Shown here piece by piece: positions 1 through 46,298 of a stretch of 64,000 bases of DNA. Source of the DNA: Hydractinia symbiolongicarpus (lineage: Eukaryota > Cnidaria > Hydrozoa > Anthoathecata > Hydractiniidae); assembly GCF_029227915.1 (NCBI RefSeq), contig NC_079876.1, positions 26,013,828 to 26,077,827 of the forward strand, written 5' to 3'. Position numbers and translations under genes: made by a program. The notes below the pieces were generated by a model. It saw only the letters and a program-made list of their open reading frames with translations, was not told the DNA's origin and ran no database searches. Numbering within the stretch: the first letter of the stretch is position 1; each line of letters begins with the position of its first letter.

Positions 1-1344
1 CATAATTAAAAGGTGAAAAGGTTTTTGAAACTAACAAAAGCATTTGGACAGGGTGGAAGATGTTAGAAATGAATTAAAATAGTTGGGAAGCCTATGAATA
101 TTTTTATGGTAATATTACTATAAAAAATTACTTGAATTTCATTTATATTTCACTTTTTATTTATTGTGGACAAAATTAATGAAACAAGGGTTAATACTCT
201 GCAGGTCAGGTAGAGAGCATTTAAATTGCAAGTGAAATTCCTTAGTGTACACACGCATCTAAATAATCCAAATTGGGGCCTCTAAAGGTGCCAAAATTAA
301 AGGAAAAAGGTTGTGCTGACGTCTGCAACAACTACCATGTTTCAAACCTTCAGATTTACCCGAATAACTTAAAATCCTAAAGTCCACTGTAAACATTGAG
401 AAGTAAACTTTGACAAGTAAATAGAATATATCTAATATAGAAACATAGACCCAAAAGAAAGACCCATAGAAACACAGACCCAGGTGAAGGGTGTCTTTAA
501 GAGACAAGAGAGGAGTTGAACGTCCTCCACCATACCTTAGTTTAAAGGGGCGATTGTGGAAGTCCCATGAAATGCCACATAGTGATGGTGTCACCTTAAA
601 AAACACCCAGTCCGGTCTGTGAACGGTTGGCGCTAGGAAGGGCATCCAGCTGTAAAACAATGCCAAACTCTTTATTAATGGCTGTAAGAAAAACGCAGAA
701 AAACTGCGTAAACGGGCAAGAACTGTAAGTAGTGAAGGTGTCGCGCACGGTAGGACAGATGTCAGGTGTGAGCATCGTCAGACCGTTACCCAGCTATCAC
801 ATCACAAGGTAGATAACACTAGGTTGAGGATGGCTAGTGTAAATGTTGGTACTCTGTGAGGTAGAGCAGGTGAAGTAGTTGAAATGTTAGAACGTAGATC
901 TGTTGATATGTGTTGTGTTCAGGAAGTCAGGTGAAGAGGAGCTTCAGTGAGATTTGTGGAAGGCAGGAGGGCAAGGGTATAAGCTTTTTTTGATTGGTAA
1001 TAGTGATGGATATGGGGGAGTTGGCATATTCGTTGCAGAAAAGCGGGTAGAAAAAGTAATAGATGTTATACGTGTTAATAGTCATATTATAGTGATAAAG
1101 TTTTTGATAGGTAATAGTATTATCACTTTTCTGTGAGTTTATGCTGCACAGTGTGGACTCAGTGAGGAAGATAAAGATAAGTTTTATGATGAGTTAATAG
1201 CAGTCACATCAAAGTTTGGAGACACTGAACTTGTCATGGTGGGCGGCGACTTTAATGGTCATGTTGGGAAGTCATGTTGAAGGTCATAGAGGTGTGCATG
1301 GAGGCTATGGATTTGGGAGCAGAAATAAGGAAGGGGAGAGATTG

Positions 1345-1726
1345 AGCTTTTGATAGAGTGCCACGTAAAGTTATTTGGTGGGCTATGAGAAAATTAGGTG
1401 TGGATGAGTGGCTAGTTACGATGGTACAGTCTTTGTACAGCAATGCTAGAAGTCGTGTCAGGATTAACGATTCACTTAGTGATGAATTTAGTGTAAATGT
1501 TGGTGTACATCAGGGTTCTGTACTTAGTCCTTTGTTGTTTGTTCTAGTCTTAGAAACGCTGTCGATGGAGTTCAGAACAGGTTGTCCATGGGAGTTATTG
1601 TATGTAGATGATTTGGTTTTCATAGCAAAGTCGATGGAAGAATTAGTTGAAAAGTTTGAGAAGTGGAAGAAAGCACTAGAAGAGAAAGGGCTAAAGGTAA
1701 ACACAGCAAAGTCTAAAGTCATATGA
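1345..1726 (+). pseudogene. LINE reverse transcriptase fragment with YVDD
   Basis: This open stretch encodes the central part of a non-LTR reverse transcriptase. It starts abruptly at AFDRVPRKVIWWAMRKLG, passes GVHQGSVLSPLLF and reaches the active-site box ELLYVDDLVFIAKS. It ends at a TGA after NTAKSKVI. The palm aspartates are present, but the N-terminal fingers and the link to the endonuclease are deleted, so this is a non-functional remnant. The next LINE segment starts at 1767. Confidence 0.75.
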
Positions 1727-1766
1727 TTAGTAGCATTGCAGCCAAGTGTGGCCTTGTAGTTAAAAA

Positions 1767-2486
1767 ATGTGGCTTTGTGGAGTTTGCAGGAAAGGGGTTG
1801 GTAGTAACTCAATTTTTTGTCAGACTTGCAAGCATTGGGTACATAAGAAGTGCAGTAGTATTAGTGGAAAGTTAAAAGCTGACATACAGTTTGTATGCAA
1901 GCGTTGCAAAGGTGAGATTATAGAGAATGAAGTATTTCCAGCTTTAATGATGTACAACAGTGGCTCGTTAGAGATAGTTAAGAACTTCTGTTACTTAGGT
2001 GATATGTTGGGCAGTGAAGGGGATGTTGGAAGAAGTGTTACTTGCAGGATAGGTTCTGCTTGGAAAAAGTTCAGAGAGTTACTTCCTTTGTTGACTAGCA
2101 GAGTCCTGTCAATTGAGGTAAAAGGTAGGTTGTATGAGGCCTGTGTAAGAAGTGTTATGTTGTACGGTTGTGAGACATTGGCAGTGAAGCAGGAAGATCT
2201 TGACCGCTTAGAAAGGAATGATATGAGAATGGTTAGGTGGATGTGTAACGCCAGTCTGAGAGACAGAAAGTGTTCAGATGAGCTAAGAAGCAGGCTAAGT
2301 CTCCGTAGCATTAAAGATGTTATCCAGATAAGAAGATTGAATTGGCTGGGGCACTTGGAAAGAATGGAGGAGGATAATTTGGTAAGAAAGTGTAGAGACT
2401 TGATAGTTCCTAGGGCAAAGCCCAGAAGCAGACCGAGAAAGACTTGGAAGGAGGTTATAAGGACAGACTTACAAAGAGGAAGTTGA
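1767..2486 (+). pseudogene. LINE ORF2 C-terminal part with an RT-embedded zinc finger
   Basis: About 239 codons in one frame. The first about 50 residues form a C-x2-C...C-x2-C-x4-H-x2-C...C-x2-C array (CGVCRKGVGSNSIFCQTC, HWVHKKC, FVCKRC) that looks like a PHD/treble-clef finger sitting between the RT palm and thumb. The rest is the thumb and C-terminal tail (NFCYLGDMLG, VMLYGCETLA, RRLNWLGHLERM, PRKTWKEV). It belongs to the same element as the upstream RT fragment, from which a stop at 1724-1726 separates it. Family assignment as RTE-like is by motif resemblance. Confidence 0.7.
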
Positions 2487-2714
2487 GTTTAGATCTAACA
2501 CAGTCTAGATCAGATTGGAAGAGGGTCATTAATATACCCCGTCCAACCCATGCTAGCATGGAAAACGGACGTTAAGCCGAGAATGATGAATGATGAGAAT
2601 GATGAGAAACAACCAACACTTATGGAGGTAAAATGCAAAATTAAGTGGCCTGTTTCATTATATTTTGTCCATGACTCTATGCCATCGCAAAATTAAAACC
2701 CAGAAGATACTTAC

Positions 2715-5700
2715 TTTTTTCGAGCACTTAATAAATGCTCTAAGATCTCCGGTAACAGGCCTTTTCTAAGATGTGCTTTCACGAAATGGTGACCACAAGG
2801 TGTGATGATGTATTCGTCAGGACTAAGCCTAAACAACAACATACATACAAATGTTAAATGAAATGTTATCATAGCAGTGCTGAAGACATAAGAACAAGTA
2901 AAAGTTGATGGAAAGTTTATCATTAATTTTTGTTGATGAAATCCAACAAAAAATTAGCATTTTTTGTTTCCCCCCAAAAATTTGTTATGTGGCCTTTAAT
3001 TTTTTTTAAAGAAATATAAAAAACCTCAGTGCCAACAGAAGCACACGTAACAAGGTATTCATTTAAAATAATTTGGTGAAAATATTTATCACACTTTTCT
3101 ATCTTTCATTCTTGATCAGTTTTTTTAGTGAGGGGTCACTTCCCACACAAAAATTTCTGTATGTCCATAAAGAACTCAAATTCAATAAGTTAAATTTATG
3201 ATGTGAAAAGCTTATAGTTTTGATGGAACCATCTGAATTATGGTGTAAATATAGAACCAAATGCTAAAATCAATCTTATGTTATGCTAACACCAACTGTA
3301 AAATCAACCTTTAGACTATTTGATAAAGCAGTGGATATAATAATTTAATAGATAGATTATCCAGTATTTATCATTCTGGCAATTACTGCAGAAACCTTTT
3401 CCTTGGTCTGGATGATCATTCCTAACCTTCTGCCAACCATTAAATGGTGATTCTGTCAACCATTAATTAGTTATTTCCCCCCTTTATTTTATGTGCTAAA
3501 ACTGTGTTAGTCCAGTGAGTTGTATTTTACATCTTTGCAGTAAATATTGCAAATAAAAAAAAAATTGTGATATATCTTCAAGAAAAGCATGTTCACAGTA
3601 AAACCTTTACCACTTTTCATGTTAACATGAAGTAATGAACTTTATTTGGAGAGGGGTTTATTACCATGTGTAAATGCTCAATTGTAATGGCTTTTCAATT
3701 AAACCCGTTTTTTTTAAATTGATTCACAGACAGACAGCAAGTATTTTAATACAGATTATTTAACTTGCTGATGTCTGACCTGACTTAAATTTCAATGCAC
3801 AACTTCCCAACATATTTCCTTAATGTATTTTAAAGCTGAATTTTTCTTTTATGTTTTAAAAGCTATTACAAACAAGGATAAGTATTTTGATTCCTTTTTA
3901 CACAATTAAAATATAGTAGCATTTGTTTATTGTGTTTAACTTGAAAATGACACACCTTTCTGCTGTTACAACAGTATCCTAAAATAGTTTCCAGTAAAAC
4001 TCTTTATTTGGTAGCTTTGGAACATACGTATACTTACTAATCAATCCACGCTATTTTTTTAAACTTTTACGTGTTAAGTCTCAGTTAAAGTCACATGGAT
4101 TTAAAATGAAAATAAAAAATTAATTGCTTACTTAGCAGCATCTTTCTTCATGAGAAGGGATGTGTAACACAAATTGTGCGCCATCATGATAGAGGGATAC
4201 AAAGAAGCAAAATCCAGCGTTGCGATTGGCATGTTGTAATATCTGAAAATTTAGTGAATGTTAAACATCAATATTAGCAGAGGTCATGAATGAACAGAAC
4301 AGACTATCTGTTACATAATACATAAAGAGAAATGAAAAATAGGAAGTTATTACTAAAAAAAAAGCTAATAATCTCAAGGGAACTTCATTTAATTTTAAGT
4401 GTATACAGGCAAATAAACTAAAAAATATTATGAAAGAAAAACATGCATTGTTGGAGTATAAAGGAATATTTTTTATACCTACCCCTTCACAGGTTCAATA
4501 ACAGTTGCACCTTCATATTCATCACCTGCATCAATTTTCTGTGCAGGAAGAATCAGATCTTGAAGCTTCGACTAAATAAAATTATCAATAAAAAAAAATC
4601 TCGAATTATAAATTGAAACTTTCATCCAACAGCACAGGTACTGTGCATTGGCTTCTCTATGAGTTTAAAGGTTTGCTCAACACAGATAAAGCCTGATATA
4701 TTTTCAAAACCCTTCGCATAATGCCATCATGACAATAATCTTTTGTCATCAGTCACGATAAAATAATATTAAAACTGCAGTTATACAAGAATTTTCAGGC
4801 TACAAAACTAGAAAAAACTTATAACCTTTAAACTAAGCTGAAAAGTAGAGACATCGCCCATAGGGTATTTCAAGGTAAACTTGTAGCAGGGACATCGCTC
4901 ATAAAGTATTTATAGATTACAATCAATTACCTTTCTTAGCAACTGTGATACCACCTTTATTTGTTGACCACGTGACAATAGATATGACAATGGTACACCA
5001 GTCACACGTGCCATTTCAATATAGTTTATAATACACATCAACTTTTCAAGAAGTCTTAATGGTAGAATTGCATCTTTCATACAATACACGGCCAAACGAC
5101 GACGAGTTTGGTTGGTACCATTCTAAAACACAGATGTTATATAAAAGTTTAGCACATTGATTTTTAGATTAGGGGAATAGTTCAGATACTCCAATGTTTC
5201 ATATCCTTCTTCAATATGCCTTGCCTAAATTACCAAATCTGGTAATAAGCAAAATTTGTTTTGGCTTGTTAAACTTTCACCATACTGTATAAATTAAACA
5301 CTTTATAGTAACACTAAATTTTAACAATTTTTGCTGAGCTATTTTGTCAAGAGACTTAAGTTAACATAGAAATGTTAATTTAAAGTGTTGCAAATAATGT
5401 TTGACACAAATGCATAATCACATCTTAAAATGCAATTTGGAAACAAAGTATCAAAAAATGTAAAAAGATTTGCTAAAAGGCAGTACAAATCAAGCCTTCT
5501 GATTCTGCTTATTTTGGTGACCAAACTACAGCCTTCAGACGTTTTTAAAAAAAAAATCACAGTTAAACTCTTCTAGGTGTATGTGTAGTGCTGGGTCATT
5601 TTTATAGCGGTAACAGGAAAATTAATTCCAATCAGAGCTGATGTAAGTCACAAGGTCCAATACGCTTTAAAATTAGACGAAAAAGACTAACAAAGTTTTA

Positions 5701-13518: not shown

Positions 13519-13524
13519 ATCTAG
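13519..13524. repeat. Target-site duplication, left copy (ATCTAG)
   Basis: The hexamer ATCTAG directly abuts the TACCGTGG terminus of the element and recurs at the right end. It is part of a local AGCTATCTAG-rich stretch, so the match has some chance of coincidence. Confidence 0.7.
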
Positions 13525-13800
13525 TACCGTGGCTGATTACAACGTTTTGTTTTCATTTAAAATAGGCGCATTGTAAAAGACGCGGCCGCGTGAAATTATG
13601 TGCGGCCGCGTTTTAAAAAGCGCGGCCGCGTCTTTATAGCAGCGGCCGCGTGTTTCACCGCGAGTTTTACCGCCAGTTTTCAAATCTGGTCCGCAAAATG
13701 TGGCAGTTAAAACAGGTACTAAAATACGCGGCCGCGCTTTTTGCCACTTATTCTGCCGTTAATTTTAAAGTAAAACAGGCGGTAAATGACGCGGCCGCGC
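13525..13800 (+). repeat. Left terminal inverted repeat with six GCGGCCGC palindromes
   Basis: It matches the right terminus over about 275 bp. Six GCGGCCGC cores lie at 13582, 13602, 13622, 13642, 13728 and 13791. The first four are spaced exactly 20 bp apart, nearly two helical turns. Between them are GCGGTAAA/TTTACCGCC words. The GC-rich palindromes stand out sharply against AT-rich surroundings and are candidate transposase-binding sites. Confidence 0.85.
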
Positions 13801-13930
13801 TTTTCTTCCGCAGAAGATTTTCGAAAAACAACGGCATGTGGCCAAGGGCGCAGTGTTCTGGTCTGCAAATTAGAGCCCTGGAACACTAGAACGGAATTCT
13901 TAGAAAGTTACTTCTCAGAACTCACAGAAA

Positions 13931-16274
13931 ATGGCAGCTGCAGCTGGAAGCTTTGAAAAGGTAAACAAGCAATTAGCTAGCTTATTTCGCTTTATTTTTT
14001 GCAAATCTACGAAGATAGTAGGCAAAGAAACACACTGACCTAAGAAAATCTTTCACATCACACAAGTCAGTTTTGATAATAGCTATATGTTTTGTTTAGG
14101 TGAAAACTTTCCTTGAGTCCAGAGGTATAGAGTATTTGTTGAATTCGTTCATCCTGAACAAAATTGACGATAATGTGGCTCCTCAAGTTGAACAACAAAA
14201 GCTTGTGGAGCTAGGGTTGGCGTATGGAGATATATTATCATATCGGCTGATATTTGCACTCCCTGTGGTTGAAGAGAAGTCCTATCATGAAAAGGCAGAT
14301 GAACTAAGAAAAATATTGAAAAGAGCCCACTCTGGGAAATATGATATTCATAACCGTCCGATAACTGTAAGGGAAACCTACAAAGTTAATGTTGGATTGA
14401 AGTGTAAAGATAAGTTATCAAAATATACAATGAAAAACAACCAGAGTTATTTGACACTATTTAATCGATCTACAAAATACCCTGAGCTACATGACGAAAT
14501 ACGTAAACACTATGATATACCACAGAAAGATCAAACATTTGTTGGTAATTATAACGGTCACTCTCTGGAGCAAGATTTCATTGATATAGAAACATATGGT
14601 TTGAGTTGTAGAGACAAAAAAAAAGGAATACAAGTATATTTATACTATCCTAAATCATTTGCGAAGTTGGAGTTTTCAAAGTTGTGCAATAAGTCATATT
14701 CAAGCATGTTTGAATTAGATACAGAAATTATTGGACCAGAAGAAACAGTAATATCATCTGCATGGGCAGAAGGTACCTCAACAATTACTGTGCCACCCAG
14801 TTTACCAGGATCGAATTTTGTTGACAGAAGTATATGCAGTGTTTGTTCTTGTACGTATATTGGTAGCTGTCTACGCTGTGAGCAAAATGAAAGTTACACA
14901 GCAACTTTGCTAGCAGATCAAACAGACAACATGACAGAGGATACTTTTTTAGCATCACCCGATCCAGATGCTGTGACAAATACTGCCAAAACTGACATAG
15001 ATGTAAACATAGAAAATTCTACTCTTCGTGATTTGAGATTGAGACATTTTTCAAGAAACACACAAAAACCAGTGAGATATAGACATTCAATTGGCTCACC
15101 CTCATTGTCTCTTCAACTAGAATCAACAGAGGACAGTTCAGCATTTGGTGATGATGAAGTGAATCGTTTTATGGAAAATTATGAGACAGATAATTTTGAT
15201 AATGCTACTCCACAGTTTGAAGAAACAGAAACTGATTCTATCGCATTTATGCAAAACTGTGAAAGCTACTTCACCAATTTACCAAAAGTAAACACAAAGC
15301 ATATCATCATACAACGAGATTCACAGCGTTTTTGGCCTGTATTATTACGTCAAAATTTTGATCTTTCGTCTGAAAAAATAGCTATCAGATTTGCAGGTGA
15401 ACCCGGTGCTGATGCAGGTGGTCCGCTGCGCGAATTTTACTCATTGTCAATGAGACGGTTTACCACTATCCCTGGGGTATTTTTCGGAGATGACAAAGGA
15501 ATTTGTTTCAAATTAATGCCAGATGGTGTATTAAAAAAAGTATATTACAAGCTTGGGCAGTTAACAGGTGCATCTATTATACATGTTGGAAGAGGTCCCG
15601 AATGTTTCTCTGAGCTCATTTTCAATGCATTGTATGATTTGCCATATCCTGATAAAATAACACCAATAAATGATGCAGAATTCAAGTATAAATTGGATAA
15701 AATTGAGAGTGGCGAGAATGAAGATCTACTTGATTTGAACATTGTTCCTGTACCTGATATCGAACAGAACAAGCAAGTTTTTTCAATCAGTTATTTAGTG
15801 ATGAAAAATCGTGCCGCAATATCACAATTTGGAGAAGGACTAAAAAGTATATGTCCAGAATTTATGTTACAATCCAATTGTCACACTATGAAAGCTTTTT
15901 TATTGCCAGATGAAAAGATCTTAACTCTTGATGAGCTTCTTGTTATTCTATGCTTTCACAACGTCGAAGAAATTGGTTCTAATTTACACCGTGATATTTC
16001 CAATGCCATTTGTGACTGTGAGCTGTTTTTAGCTGATGTTGCTAATGGAAACTATGATGAGATATCTCTTAAAGACATACTGTTTTTATTCACTGGAATG
16101 GATAAAATTCCCAGAAAGGGTTTGGATAAAAACATTGATATTTTTTTTAACTGTGATTTCAACTTTCCAAAAATTTCTACATGTGGACTTAATGCCACTC
16201 TACCAACAAAAAAAGTTGAGCATAATCTGAAGATTGCTGCTAAATTCGGAGGGACTGGATTTGGTGTTGTTTAA
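13931..16274 (+). CDS. Transposon-borne HECT-type E3 ubiquitin ligase
   Basis: Predicted to transfer ubiquitin through a catalytic cysteine thioester. Two exons: a 10-codon exon 13931-13960 (MAAAAGSFEK) and 14100-16274, joined by a 139-bp GT/AG intron in phase 0; total 734 residues. The N-terminal about 240 residues are unfamiliar. A cysteine cluster at about 256-271 (CSVCSCTYIGSCLRC) may bind zinc, and an acidic Ser/Asp/Glu-rich linker follows. The HECT domain fills about 415-734: N-lobe signature FAGEPGADAGGPLREF near 440 and catalytic Cys705 in ISTCGLNATLPT. The frame is intact with no missing key residue. It resembles G2E3-like HECT proteins. Its position inside the terminal repeats, facing the integrase gene, ties it to the element. 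Its role in transposition is inference. Confidence 0.85.
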
Positions 16275-16611
16275 AATATTCATGTTTTGTATCATATATT
16301 ATTGAAAAAATGTTTTTAGTCTTTTTTTAAATGAAAATTTTGTTATCAAGTTTTTTGGTAATCACTTTTTTAGGACTTTCTAGTGTAACCTTATAACCCC
16401 CAAGAGATCTCAGTTCTTCATATACGTTTCATTGAAATTTTTTTGAATTTGTTAAAGTGCTCCCAGTGAAAACGAGCGAATTTCGCCTCTTTTATGATAT
16501 TGGAAAATTTATTGATTGTTATTCTCATGATTTATATGTGATATTTTGTTTGGATATGTTATGTTTCATCAAAGAGACTTAGTATATAAATGTTTCTTTT
16601 TGTTTAGCTTG
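16275..16611. other. Convergent 3' spacer inside the transposon
   Basis: 337 bp of AT-rich DNA between the stop codons of the two tail-to-tail genes. It must hold both polyadenylation regions; I see no canonical AATAAA that I would assign to either gene. Confidence 0.5.
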
Positions 16612-17790
16612 TTAAACTATAAACCCGTCATTCCTTAAGAATCCAAGTAATTGCACATATGTTTCCAATGATTGTTGTGCGTCCATGGGTGCTTGCAAGT
16701 GATGTATCCCCATATAACAAATCAATAAATCATGCAAATCTTTATTTTTGAAAACTGGATGATGATCAATTCCCATGACATTTTCAGCGACAGATATTTC
16801 AGTGCTATCCACAAGCATCCCTTGATTTGAATAGCCACTTGCTGACGGAATATGAAACAATAGGTCTGGACGACCTCCTGGTGCGCTTGATGACTGGCGT
16901 ACGTTTCTTGAATTCCATGTGATGACAAAATCATTAAATTCTCTCTGTAAAACGGGAATATAACAAAGAAATAAGGCTTCTCTATGGGTTGGTAATTCGG
17001 GGTCATATACGAGTGTTGATGTGAGATGTTTGAAATAATTTATCCACCAATTAAGTTTGTACAACTTGAGACGAGACCAAAATGCTTCTATTCTCTGGTT
17101 TCCCGTTGAACGACCGTACTTAAAACTATCGCTGTTACCAGTGAAAAATTCTTGTAAATCCGCACAATAAATGTTTTCCGTCCCTCGGTCCATTCTCAGT
17201 ATACGCGGACATACACCGTATCTCTTCACGCATTGCAAAAACAAATTTCCGATTACAAGTGGATCATTATTTGTTGTTGAAACAACCAACCATAGTAATT
17301 TACGGCTGAAACCATCAATACCACCGTGTATTGCCAATCCCCATCTTTTTAATTTGTCATTTCCATCTATATGATATATGTCACAAGGACCTTTGGTATC
17401 ATATATGCGTCGTGTAATCACTTTTCCAAGCCTTTTTTCTACTCCTGACGGATCCACCTCCTTCAATATAGTTCGCACAGTCTCCTTAGCAACAATCACG
17501 TCAAACTTCAATGCTATCAATTCTGTCATTTGCCGGTAACCGAAACTTGAAGATGACACTTGCAACTCATTCTTAATAATATCTACCAGGATACTGCGAG
17601 AAACATTGCTAGTTCGACGTAAGCCCAATCTTGTGCATATTGATTGAAACTTTCTCATAGATAATGACTTGTGATGACGCTTGTTAATCACCATACATAT
17701 TTCCAAATACTTCAACTTAGGTCGTAGGCTATGATAATACGCCACTAAATCTTCCAATGACACATCGACACCGACTGGCATAGCATCCAT
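16612..17790 (-). CDS. rve/DDE integrase-like transposase
   Basis: A 392-residue single-exon protein starting at ATG 17790. Residues about 20-60 (KYLEICMVINKRHHKSLSMR onward) look like a helix-turn-helix DNA-binding region. The RNase-H-fold catalytic core has D142 (YHIDGNDKLKRWG), D201 (RILRMDRGTENIY) and E235 (GNQRIEAFWSRLK), a D-58-D-33-E spacing typical of retroviral-integrase/IS3-like enzymes. GIDGFSRKLLWL is also characteristic of the core. All three acidic residues are present and the frame is open, so the enzyme may be functional. It would cut and join the element ends. It lies 84 bp inside the right terminal repeat and is transcribed away from that repeat. Confidence 0.9.
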   Translation of the reverse strand: MDAMPVGVDVSLEDLVAYYHSLRPKLKYLEICMVINKRHHKSLSMRKFQSICTRLGLRRTSNVSRSILVDIIKNELQVSSSSFGYRQMTELIALKFDVIVAKETVRTILKEVDPSGVEKRLGKVITRRIYDTKGPCDIYHIDGNDKLKRWGLAIHGGIDGFSRKLLWLVVSTTNNDPLVIGNLFLQCVKRYGVCPRILRMDRGTENIYCADLQEFFTGNSDSFKYGRSTGNQRIEAFWSRLKLYKLNWWINYFKHLTSTLVYDPELPTHREALFLCYIPVLQREFNDFVITWNSRNVRQSSSAPGGRPDLLFHIPSASGYSNQGMLVDSTEISVAENVMGIDHHPVFKNKDLHDLLICYMGIHHLQAPMDAQQSLETYVQLLGFLRNDGFIV

Positions 17791-17873
17791 CTTGCACTAC
17801 GAGTAAACACGTTTTCGTCATTGAACGGTGGTAACTCTCAGGACCACATCGAATCACATCTCAAGGAAAACTG

Positions 17874-18148
17874 CCCGGCCGCGTCATTTACCGCCTGTTT
17901 TACCTTGAAATTAGCGGCAAAATCAGCGGCAAAAAGCGCGGCCGCGTATTTTAGCACCTGTTTTAACTTTGACATTCTGCAGACCAGATTTAGAAACCGG
18001 CGGTAAAACTGGCGGTAAAACACGCGGCCGCTCCTAAAAACACGCGGCCGCGCTTTTTAAAACGCGGCCGCACATAATTTCACGCGGCCGCGTCTTTTAC
18101 AGTGCGCCTATTTTAAATGAAAACAAAACGTTGTAATCAGCCACGGTA
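17874..18148 (-). repeat. Right terminal inverted repeat with palindromes
   Basis: The reverse complement of the left repeat, including the 20-bp-spaced cluster (cores at 18024, 18044, 18064, 18084) and the inner sites (17938 and a mutated one near 17875, CCCGGCCGCG). It differs from the left copy by scattered substitutions and small indels, so the two ends have had some time to diverge. Confidence 0.85.
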
Positions 18149-18154
18149 ATCTAG
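18149..18154. repeat. Target-site duplication, right copy (ATCTAG)
   Basis: The hexamer follows the right terminus CCACGGTA directly and matches the left copy in the same orientation, as expected for a 6-bp staggered insertion. Confidence 0.7.

Positions 18155-30991: not shown

Positions 30992-46298
<15,307 letters not shown>

Follow-up and report, generated by a model that had tools for sequence, protein, structure and literature searches.

A transposase is commonly regarded as almost all that a cut-and-paste DNA transposon requires. The closest described group to the element reported here is the IS3EU/GingerRoot superfamily, whose members, according to the available text of Kojima (2023, PMC10045372), have TA..TA ends (in GingerRoot, for the most part), target duplications that are usually 6 bp long, and a DDE transposase akin to those of IS481 and IS3. 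Fungal TET+ IS3EU elements, as described in the accessible part of Kojima (2025, PMC12730594), combine 6-bp duplications and TAYGG..CCRTA ends with an alpha-kinase gene lying in opposite orientation to the transposase gene. RAG-like transposons contain two convergent genes, according to the part of the source available (PMC7204232). Here, we describe a transposon of the colonial hydroid Hydractinia symbiolongicarpus (Hydrozoa) in which a gene for a HECT ubiquitin ligase (E3) converges with an integrase gene. The element lies in a 64,000-nucleotide stretch of contig NC_079876.1 (positions 26,013,828 to 26,077,827; hereafter the window). Because this combination of two genes is found again in many elements of the genome that are only distantly related, the ligase appears to be a regular component of these transposons rather than a chance passenger.

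The genome was searched with the integrase protein, and the 107 matches obtained, at 30% identity and upward (the best 105 of 759 candidates were scored), were merged into 101 loci. HECT places were collected with four protein queries (those of the window and of loci L050, L061, and L063) and with Pfam HECT. At 78 of the 101 listed integrase loci, an opposite-strand, and thus convergent, HECT segment was located no more than 3 kb beyond the 3' end of the integrase, and the other three arrangements of the two genes were found at 3, 2, and 2 of the listed loci. Random placement, repeated 300 times, gave a mean of 0.23 and a maximum of 3 loci with a convergent HECT segment. With fewer HECT queries, the count had been 53, then 72, then 75 of the listed loci (the first with merged HECT loci, the later counts, including 78, with unmerged segments); the median gap between integrase and HECT was 504.5 bp at the 72-locus count. 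Ten partner pieces were run on Pfam, and eight contained HECT-region sequence, seven of these above the gathering score (L040, L050, L053, L057, L059, L060, and L063). The L061 piece was not recognised, and the N-terminal partner pieces of L060 and L066 contain no HECT part.

The distances of the two proteins were compared for 13 pairs, which include two close relatives of others and omit L062, whose HECT is partial. Integrase and HECT distances correlated with r = 0.92, and none of 5000 permutations reached a value as high. All 13 pairs have the catalytic cysteine, in 12 of them as TC and in one as AC. This cysteine was also found in 9 of 27 database homologues, namely all nine that reach the site, two of which are Hydractinia's own (P0001 and P0140); the other 18 stop short of the site or are modelled differently there. 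HECT diverges faster, with identities of 12-47% among clearly different families compared with 28-56% for the integrase, over the alignment columns shown. The convergent loci, the distance correlation, and the retained cysteine indicate that the pairing is old and stable, and we are nearly certain that integrase and HECT form a stable two-gene unit.

The window element occupies 4,624 bp, with inverted ends of about 300 bp (TACCGTGG..CCACGGTA), and its features are as follows.

13519-13524: left copy of the target site duplication, ATCTAG, 6 bp
13525-13824, plus strand: left terminal inverted repeat, starting TACCGTGGCTGATTAC
13581-13799: six CGCGGCCGCG-type palindromes (at most 1 mismatch), of which the first four are spaced exactly 20 bp apart
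13931-13960, plus strand: HECT exon 1 (10 amino acids), an open frame after splicing; P0001 starts with the same residues
13961-14099, plus strand: HECT intron, GT..AG, inferred from the sequence and P0001
14100-16274, plus strand: HECT exon 2 (724 amino acids and stop), with N-terminal regions, CxxC knuckle, RYRHSIGSPS motif, and HECT domain with Cys705
14616-14624, plus strand: A9 tract within the HECT frame; A10 shifts the frame
14835-14879, plus strand: CSVCSCTYIGSCLRC, putative zinc knuckle
16612-17790, minus strand: integrase/transposase, 392 amino acids, with D142, D201, and E235, Pfam rva_4
17849-18148, minus strand: right terminal inverted repeat
17874-18092: six more palindromes, of which the last four are spaced exactly 20 bp apart
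18149-18154: right copy of the target site duplication, ATCTAG, 6 bp

The initial annotation, made from the letters alone, had placed an element with long inverted ends and a 6-bp duplication at 13525-18148, and these borders proved exact, with ATCTAG on both sides. It had also read two intact convergent genes with Cys705 and with D142, D201, and E235, and every residue was recovered at its position. The inverted arms are 89% complementary across 300 nt, and their outermost 46 nt are identical. When up to 3 mismatches are allowed, the window contains just two occurrences of the 20-bp element end, against 0.00 expected. All 12 CGCGGCCGCG-like palindromes of the window, where 0.09 were expected, are inside the two ends, and this array represents candidate sites for transposase binding. 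TA-type left ends of two further families, TACCGTGGCTGAATTGG and TACGGAGCG, were mapped from independent insertions; 20-bp phased GCGGCCGC sites are present in the left end of the TACCGTGGCTGAATTGG family and absent from that of the TACGGAGCG family. Complete inverted ends were not found by a scan of loci L040 upward, probably because most of them end before the far end.

A search of the 480.9-Mb assembly with the leading 976 bp of the element returned 43 matches, a figure in which one copy can appear more than once, through its two ends or through separate pieces. Twenty stretches were fetched, and 18 places, including that of the window, were checked for both genes; short end fragments (C12:19773332, C5:20813386, and C7:17893944) were left out of this count. 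Sixteen of the 18 places hold sequence of both HECT and integrase, intact or disrupted, the exceptions being C7_14.51, with an integrase piece only, and C7_14.54, with an end only. The latter corresponds to element positions 1-314 and C7_14.52 to positions 312-4624 in the same orientation, and the two may be one copy divided by an insertion; the pair would then be present in 16 of 17 places and perfect duplications in 9 of 14 copies, since the outer flanks differ. As counted, perfect 6-bp duplications flank 9 of the 13 copies with both ends readable (window, C12, C3, C2_21.4, C1_4.7, C5_16.75, C9_19.44, C1_27.5, and C5_16.45). In the remaining four, the duplication is 7 bp long (C8), matches at 5 of 6 positions (C2_23.8 and C6), or is missing (C9_18.94).

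Copies C12, C3, and C5_16.17 align to the window element over 4.3-4.6 kb at 99.65-99.72% identity, and C1_4.7 aligns as two blocks, with 99.76 and 99.78% identity, on either side of a deletion of about 213 bp. C12, C3, and C1_4.7 have 6-bp duplications of their own, and C5_16.17 lacks one end. The family is multicopy and young. A second, diverged element is nested in copy C5_16.75 and holds an integrase and both HECT termini, as remnants, in the same layout. The earlier proposal that HECT and integrase belong together in the transposon found strong support within the family as well as across the listed integrase loci. Co-occurrence of both genes between matching ends with 6-bp duplications, which the initial annotation had suggested looking for across the genome, was observed among copies of this family. 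Copies with the same ends that never contain HECT, or HECT paralogues always outside such ends, had been named as signs of chance capture, and neither pattern was seen.

The window integrase matched Pfam rva_4 at E 2.7e-35 and, weakly, rve at E 0.0019. Matches to IS481 (E 9e-4) and IS3 (E 1e-3) in NCBIfam were likewise weak and fell far short of the cut-offs. D142, D201, and E235 were invariant in an alignment with 21 homologues, as expected of an IS481/IS3-related DDE transposase. The element, for which the initial annotation had named no superfamily, was placed in IS3EU/GingerRoot on the basis of its TA..TA ends, the 6-bp duplications, and this integrase. It is best explained as a recently active cut-and-paste DNA transposon of this superfamily in which integrase and ligase are inherited as one unit and the ligase aids the element; to this explanation as a whole, we give a probability of roughly 80%. 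Related integrases were named from Clytia, Lingula, Halichondria, Triplophysa, Holothuria, and Aphidius; no contig of another species with both HECT and integrase was seen by eye among the matches listed (up to 26 for HECT, 120 of 217 for integrase). A prokaryote species collection scanned with the integrase alignment, and viral contigs scanned with the HECT and integrase proteins, yielded no relative confirmed by tblastn (patterns were used in both scans). An integrase sub-family, L056 and L057, has an added zinc-ribbon-like N terminus (for L056, Pfam Zn_ribbon_3 at E 0.0014, below the cut-off).

Joining the two HECT exons gives an open frame of 734 amino acids, in which the active-site Cys705 of the C-lobe stands in the context ISTCGLNATLP; a gap of 337 nt separates the gene from the integrase. 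The LP motif and a GFG-like end are also kept, and the CxxC knuckle pattern was seen in 7 of 9 HECT genes examined, including that of the window. The closest database protein is LOC130632632 (P0001) of H. symbiolongicarpus, 96% identical over 81%. Of the 11 copies readable at the A9 tract, 4 have A10 there, one recurrent break of the HECT frame that could stem from slippage, assembly error, or frameshifting. We consider it likely that the protein is an active E3 ligase.

Elsewhere in the window, an open frame at 1764-2486 contains a PHD finger, with a tail resembling a long interspersed nuclear element (LINE) by eye only, and an open frame at 43639-44196 on the minus strand contains a Peptidase M1 N-terminal domain and is probably a host gene.

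Several results weigh against a conserved transposon unit with a working ligase. The window HECT is weak by Pfam, with E 7e-4 and 19.8 bits for the 614-amino-acid ATG frame against a gathering score of 23.9 and no match listed for the 734- or 724-amino-acid version. Against solved structures, the protein alone found one HECT, TOM1, at E 0.0096. In contrast, a profile of 18 sequences, among them that of the window, found 29 solved HECT sequences over both lobes, UBE3A at the top (E 1e-7), and 5 of the 18 members match Pfam HECT. The HECT assignment therefore rests on the family, through this profile and the seven partner proteins above the Pfam threshold, more than on the window protein, which by itself remains below the cut-off. 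Moreover, the full exon-2 frame of HECT is open in 3 of 18 places, compared with 9 of 18 for the full-length integrase frame, implying that the ligase may be less needed per copy or supplied in trans. Within the family, the ratio of nonsynonymous to synonymous substitution rates (dN/dS) was noisy for either gene, with several pairs at values close to 1 or higher. The distance correlation speaks for joint inheritance, not joint function, because near-identical pairs raise r and linkage alone suffices. For the other 23 integrase loci in the list of 101, the queries used gave no convergent HECT within 3 kb. Some of these are fragments, and C14:3930859 (L062) shows a convergent HECT N-lobe on reading. 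At C1:28887876 (L065), no HECT-like frame of at least 110 amino acids was found in the 3.4 kb on the 3' side, and HECT segments are located on the 5' side, on the same strand; at C4:1669544 (L046), no convergent HECT was found on reading. From the HECT side, 68 of 121 merged loci (first two queries) have no listed convergent integrase. Among the 90 Pfam-HECT loci, some of which are host genes, 70 lie more than 3 kb from any integrase in the list. All of this evidence comes from one genome.

The last count also bears on the earlier idea that the pairing explains scattered HECT copies in animal genomes. In this genome it accounts for part of the scattered HECT-like segments, at least one of which is annotated as a gene (LOC130632632), and it does not extend to all of them. 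Nine near-equal Pfam-HECT matches, each in a 641-amino-acid open frame, have no listed integrase within 3 kb (C1:29493934, C2:11959064, C3:23045676, C4:21335233, C4:24771145, C4:32094989, C9:26490887, C14:3758304, and C14:8471574) and are perhaps another mobile HECT carrier. A 96-residue frame with one HECT piece (profile positions 233-282) occurs at twelve places, for example C10:11159249 and C8:8224064, and resembles a non-autonomous repeat.

Transposons do capture genes, and one IS3EU copy might have acquired a host HECT gene that has hitchhiked since; the scarcity of whole HECT frames (3 of 18 places) would suit such a passenger. The counts contradict this explanation, because the convergent arrangement at 78 of the listed loci reaches integrases down to 30% identity, the distances of the two proteins correlate, and the cysteine is kept in every pair, and we consider chance capture very improbable. 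An integrase derived from a long terminal repeat (LTR) retroelement, a Polinton, or a Ginger element would be consistent with the weak rve match. However, the element has only two genes in 4.6 kb, its long end repeats are inverted rather than direct, IS481 and IS3 are matched, if weakly, and the TA..TA ends with 6-bp duplications are as in IS3EU/GingerRoot according to the available text of PMC10045372, so that this origin has hardly any probability left.

The remaining alternatives concern what the HECT protein does. It could have become inactive as a ligase and assist the integrase as a scaffold or as a cofactor at the DNA ends, the part that RAG2-like proteins play for RAG1-like transposases; the weak Pfam match of the window protein and the two-convergent-gene layout of RAG-like transposons (available part of PMC7204232) agree with this, but all 13 pairs and all 9 homologues reaching the site have the catalytic cysteine, which is more than a scaffold requires, and we regard such a role as improbable. 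The ligase could also serve in counter-defence, ubiquitinating host silencing or surveillance proteins. Transposon-borne modifying enzymes have precedents, IS3EU included, since TET dioxygenases, proposed to aid escape from methylation-based silencing, occur in fungal IS3EU and in other transposons (accessible part of PMC12730594). The faster divergence of HECT than of integrase would be expected if the targets vary; it also fits relaxed constraint, and we view counter-defence as possible at less than even odds.

For the two-gene IS3EU-type transposon favoured here, we propose the following mechanism. The rva_4 integrase would cut at the TA..TA ends, where the palindromes phased at 20 bp probably guide it, and the element inserts with the 6-bp target duplications seen at its flanks. 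Recurrence and matching distances in this genome suggest that HECT E3 and integrase have been inherited as one unit since before its element families diverged. The ligase, acting through Cys705, may aid the movement or survival of the element by ubiquitinating a nuclear protein linked to transposition. One possible substrate is the integrase or transpososome itself, through turnover, disassembly of the strand-transfer complex, or dosage; a host silencing or repair factor is an equally tentative candidate, and some other substrate is only slightly less likely. As a working hypothesis held with some reserve, integrase and HECT E3 may be the ancestral core of animal IS3EU, with built-in ubiquitination of the integrase or a host silencing factor and a standing source of orphan HECT genes for animal genomes. 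Many element families of one animal genome retain a ubiquitin ligase beside the transposase across deep divergence.

No paper in the open-licence library surveyed contains both IS3EU and HECT, and none of those listed reports a HECT-bearing transposon in its title or the opening of its abstract; an earlier description in Repbase entries or in subscription literature, most of which lay outside that scope, is possible. The window protein resembles HECT E3s such as UBE3A in having both lobes by profile, the active-site cysteine, the LP motif, and a GFG-like end, and differs from them in its N-terminal parts and in being divergent, mobile, and multicopy. RAG-like transposons encode a transposase and a second protein that are unrelated to those of the window element. 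They share with it the combination of transposase and second protein from two convergent genes in one element, as given in the available part of PMC7204232. IS3EU/GingerRoot agrees with the window element in TA..TA ends, usual 6-bp duplications, and an IS481/IS3-related DDE transposase, but the available text of PMC10045372 mentions no second gene and does not contain the term HECT. Fungal TET+ IS3EU, in the accessible part of PMC12730594, shares 6-bp duplications and an accessory gene for a protein-modifying enzyme; it differs in its fungal hosts, in having a kinase and a TET dioxygenase rather than a HECT E3, and in that opposite orientation, not convergence, is stated for its genes. The occurrence of accessory protein-modifying enzymes in two kingdoms, HECT here and alpha-kinase in fungal IS3EU as far as that source describes it, suggests a shared need. 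Control by protein modification may thus be a recurrent requirement of such elements, a question that can be tested in the hydroid.

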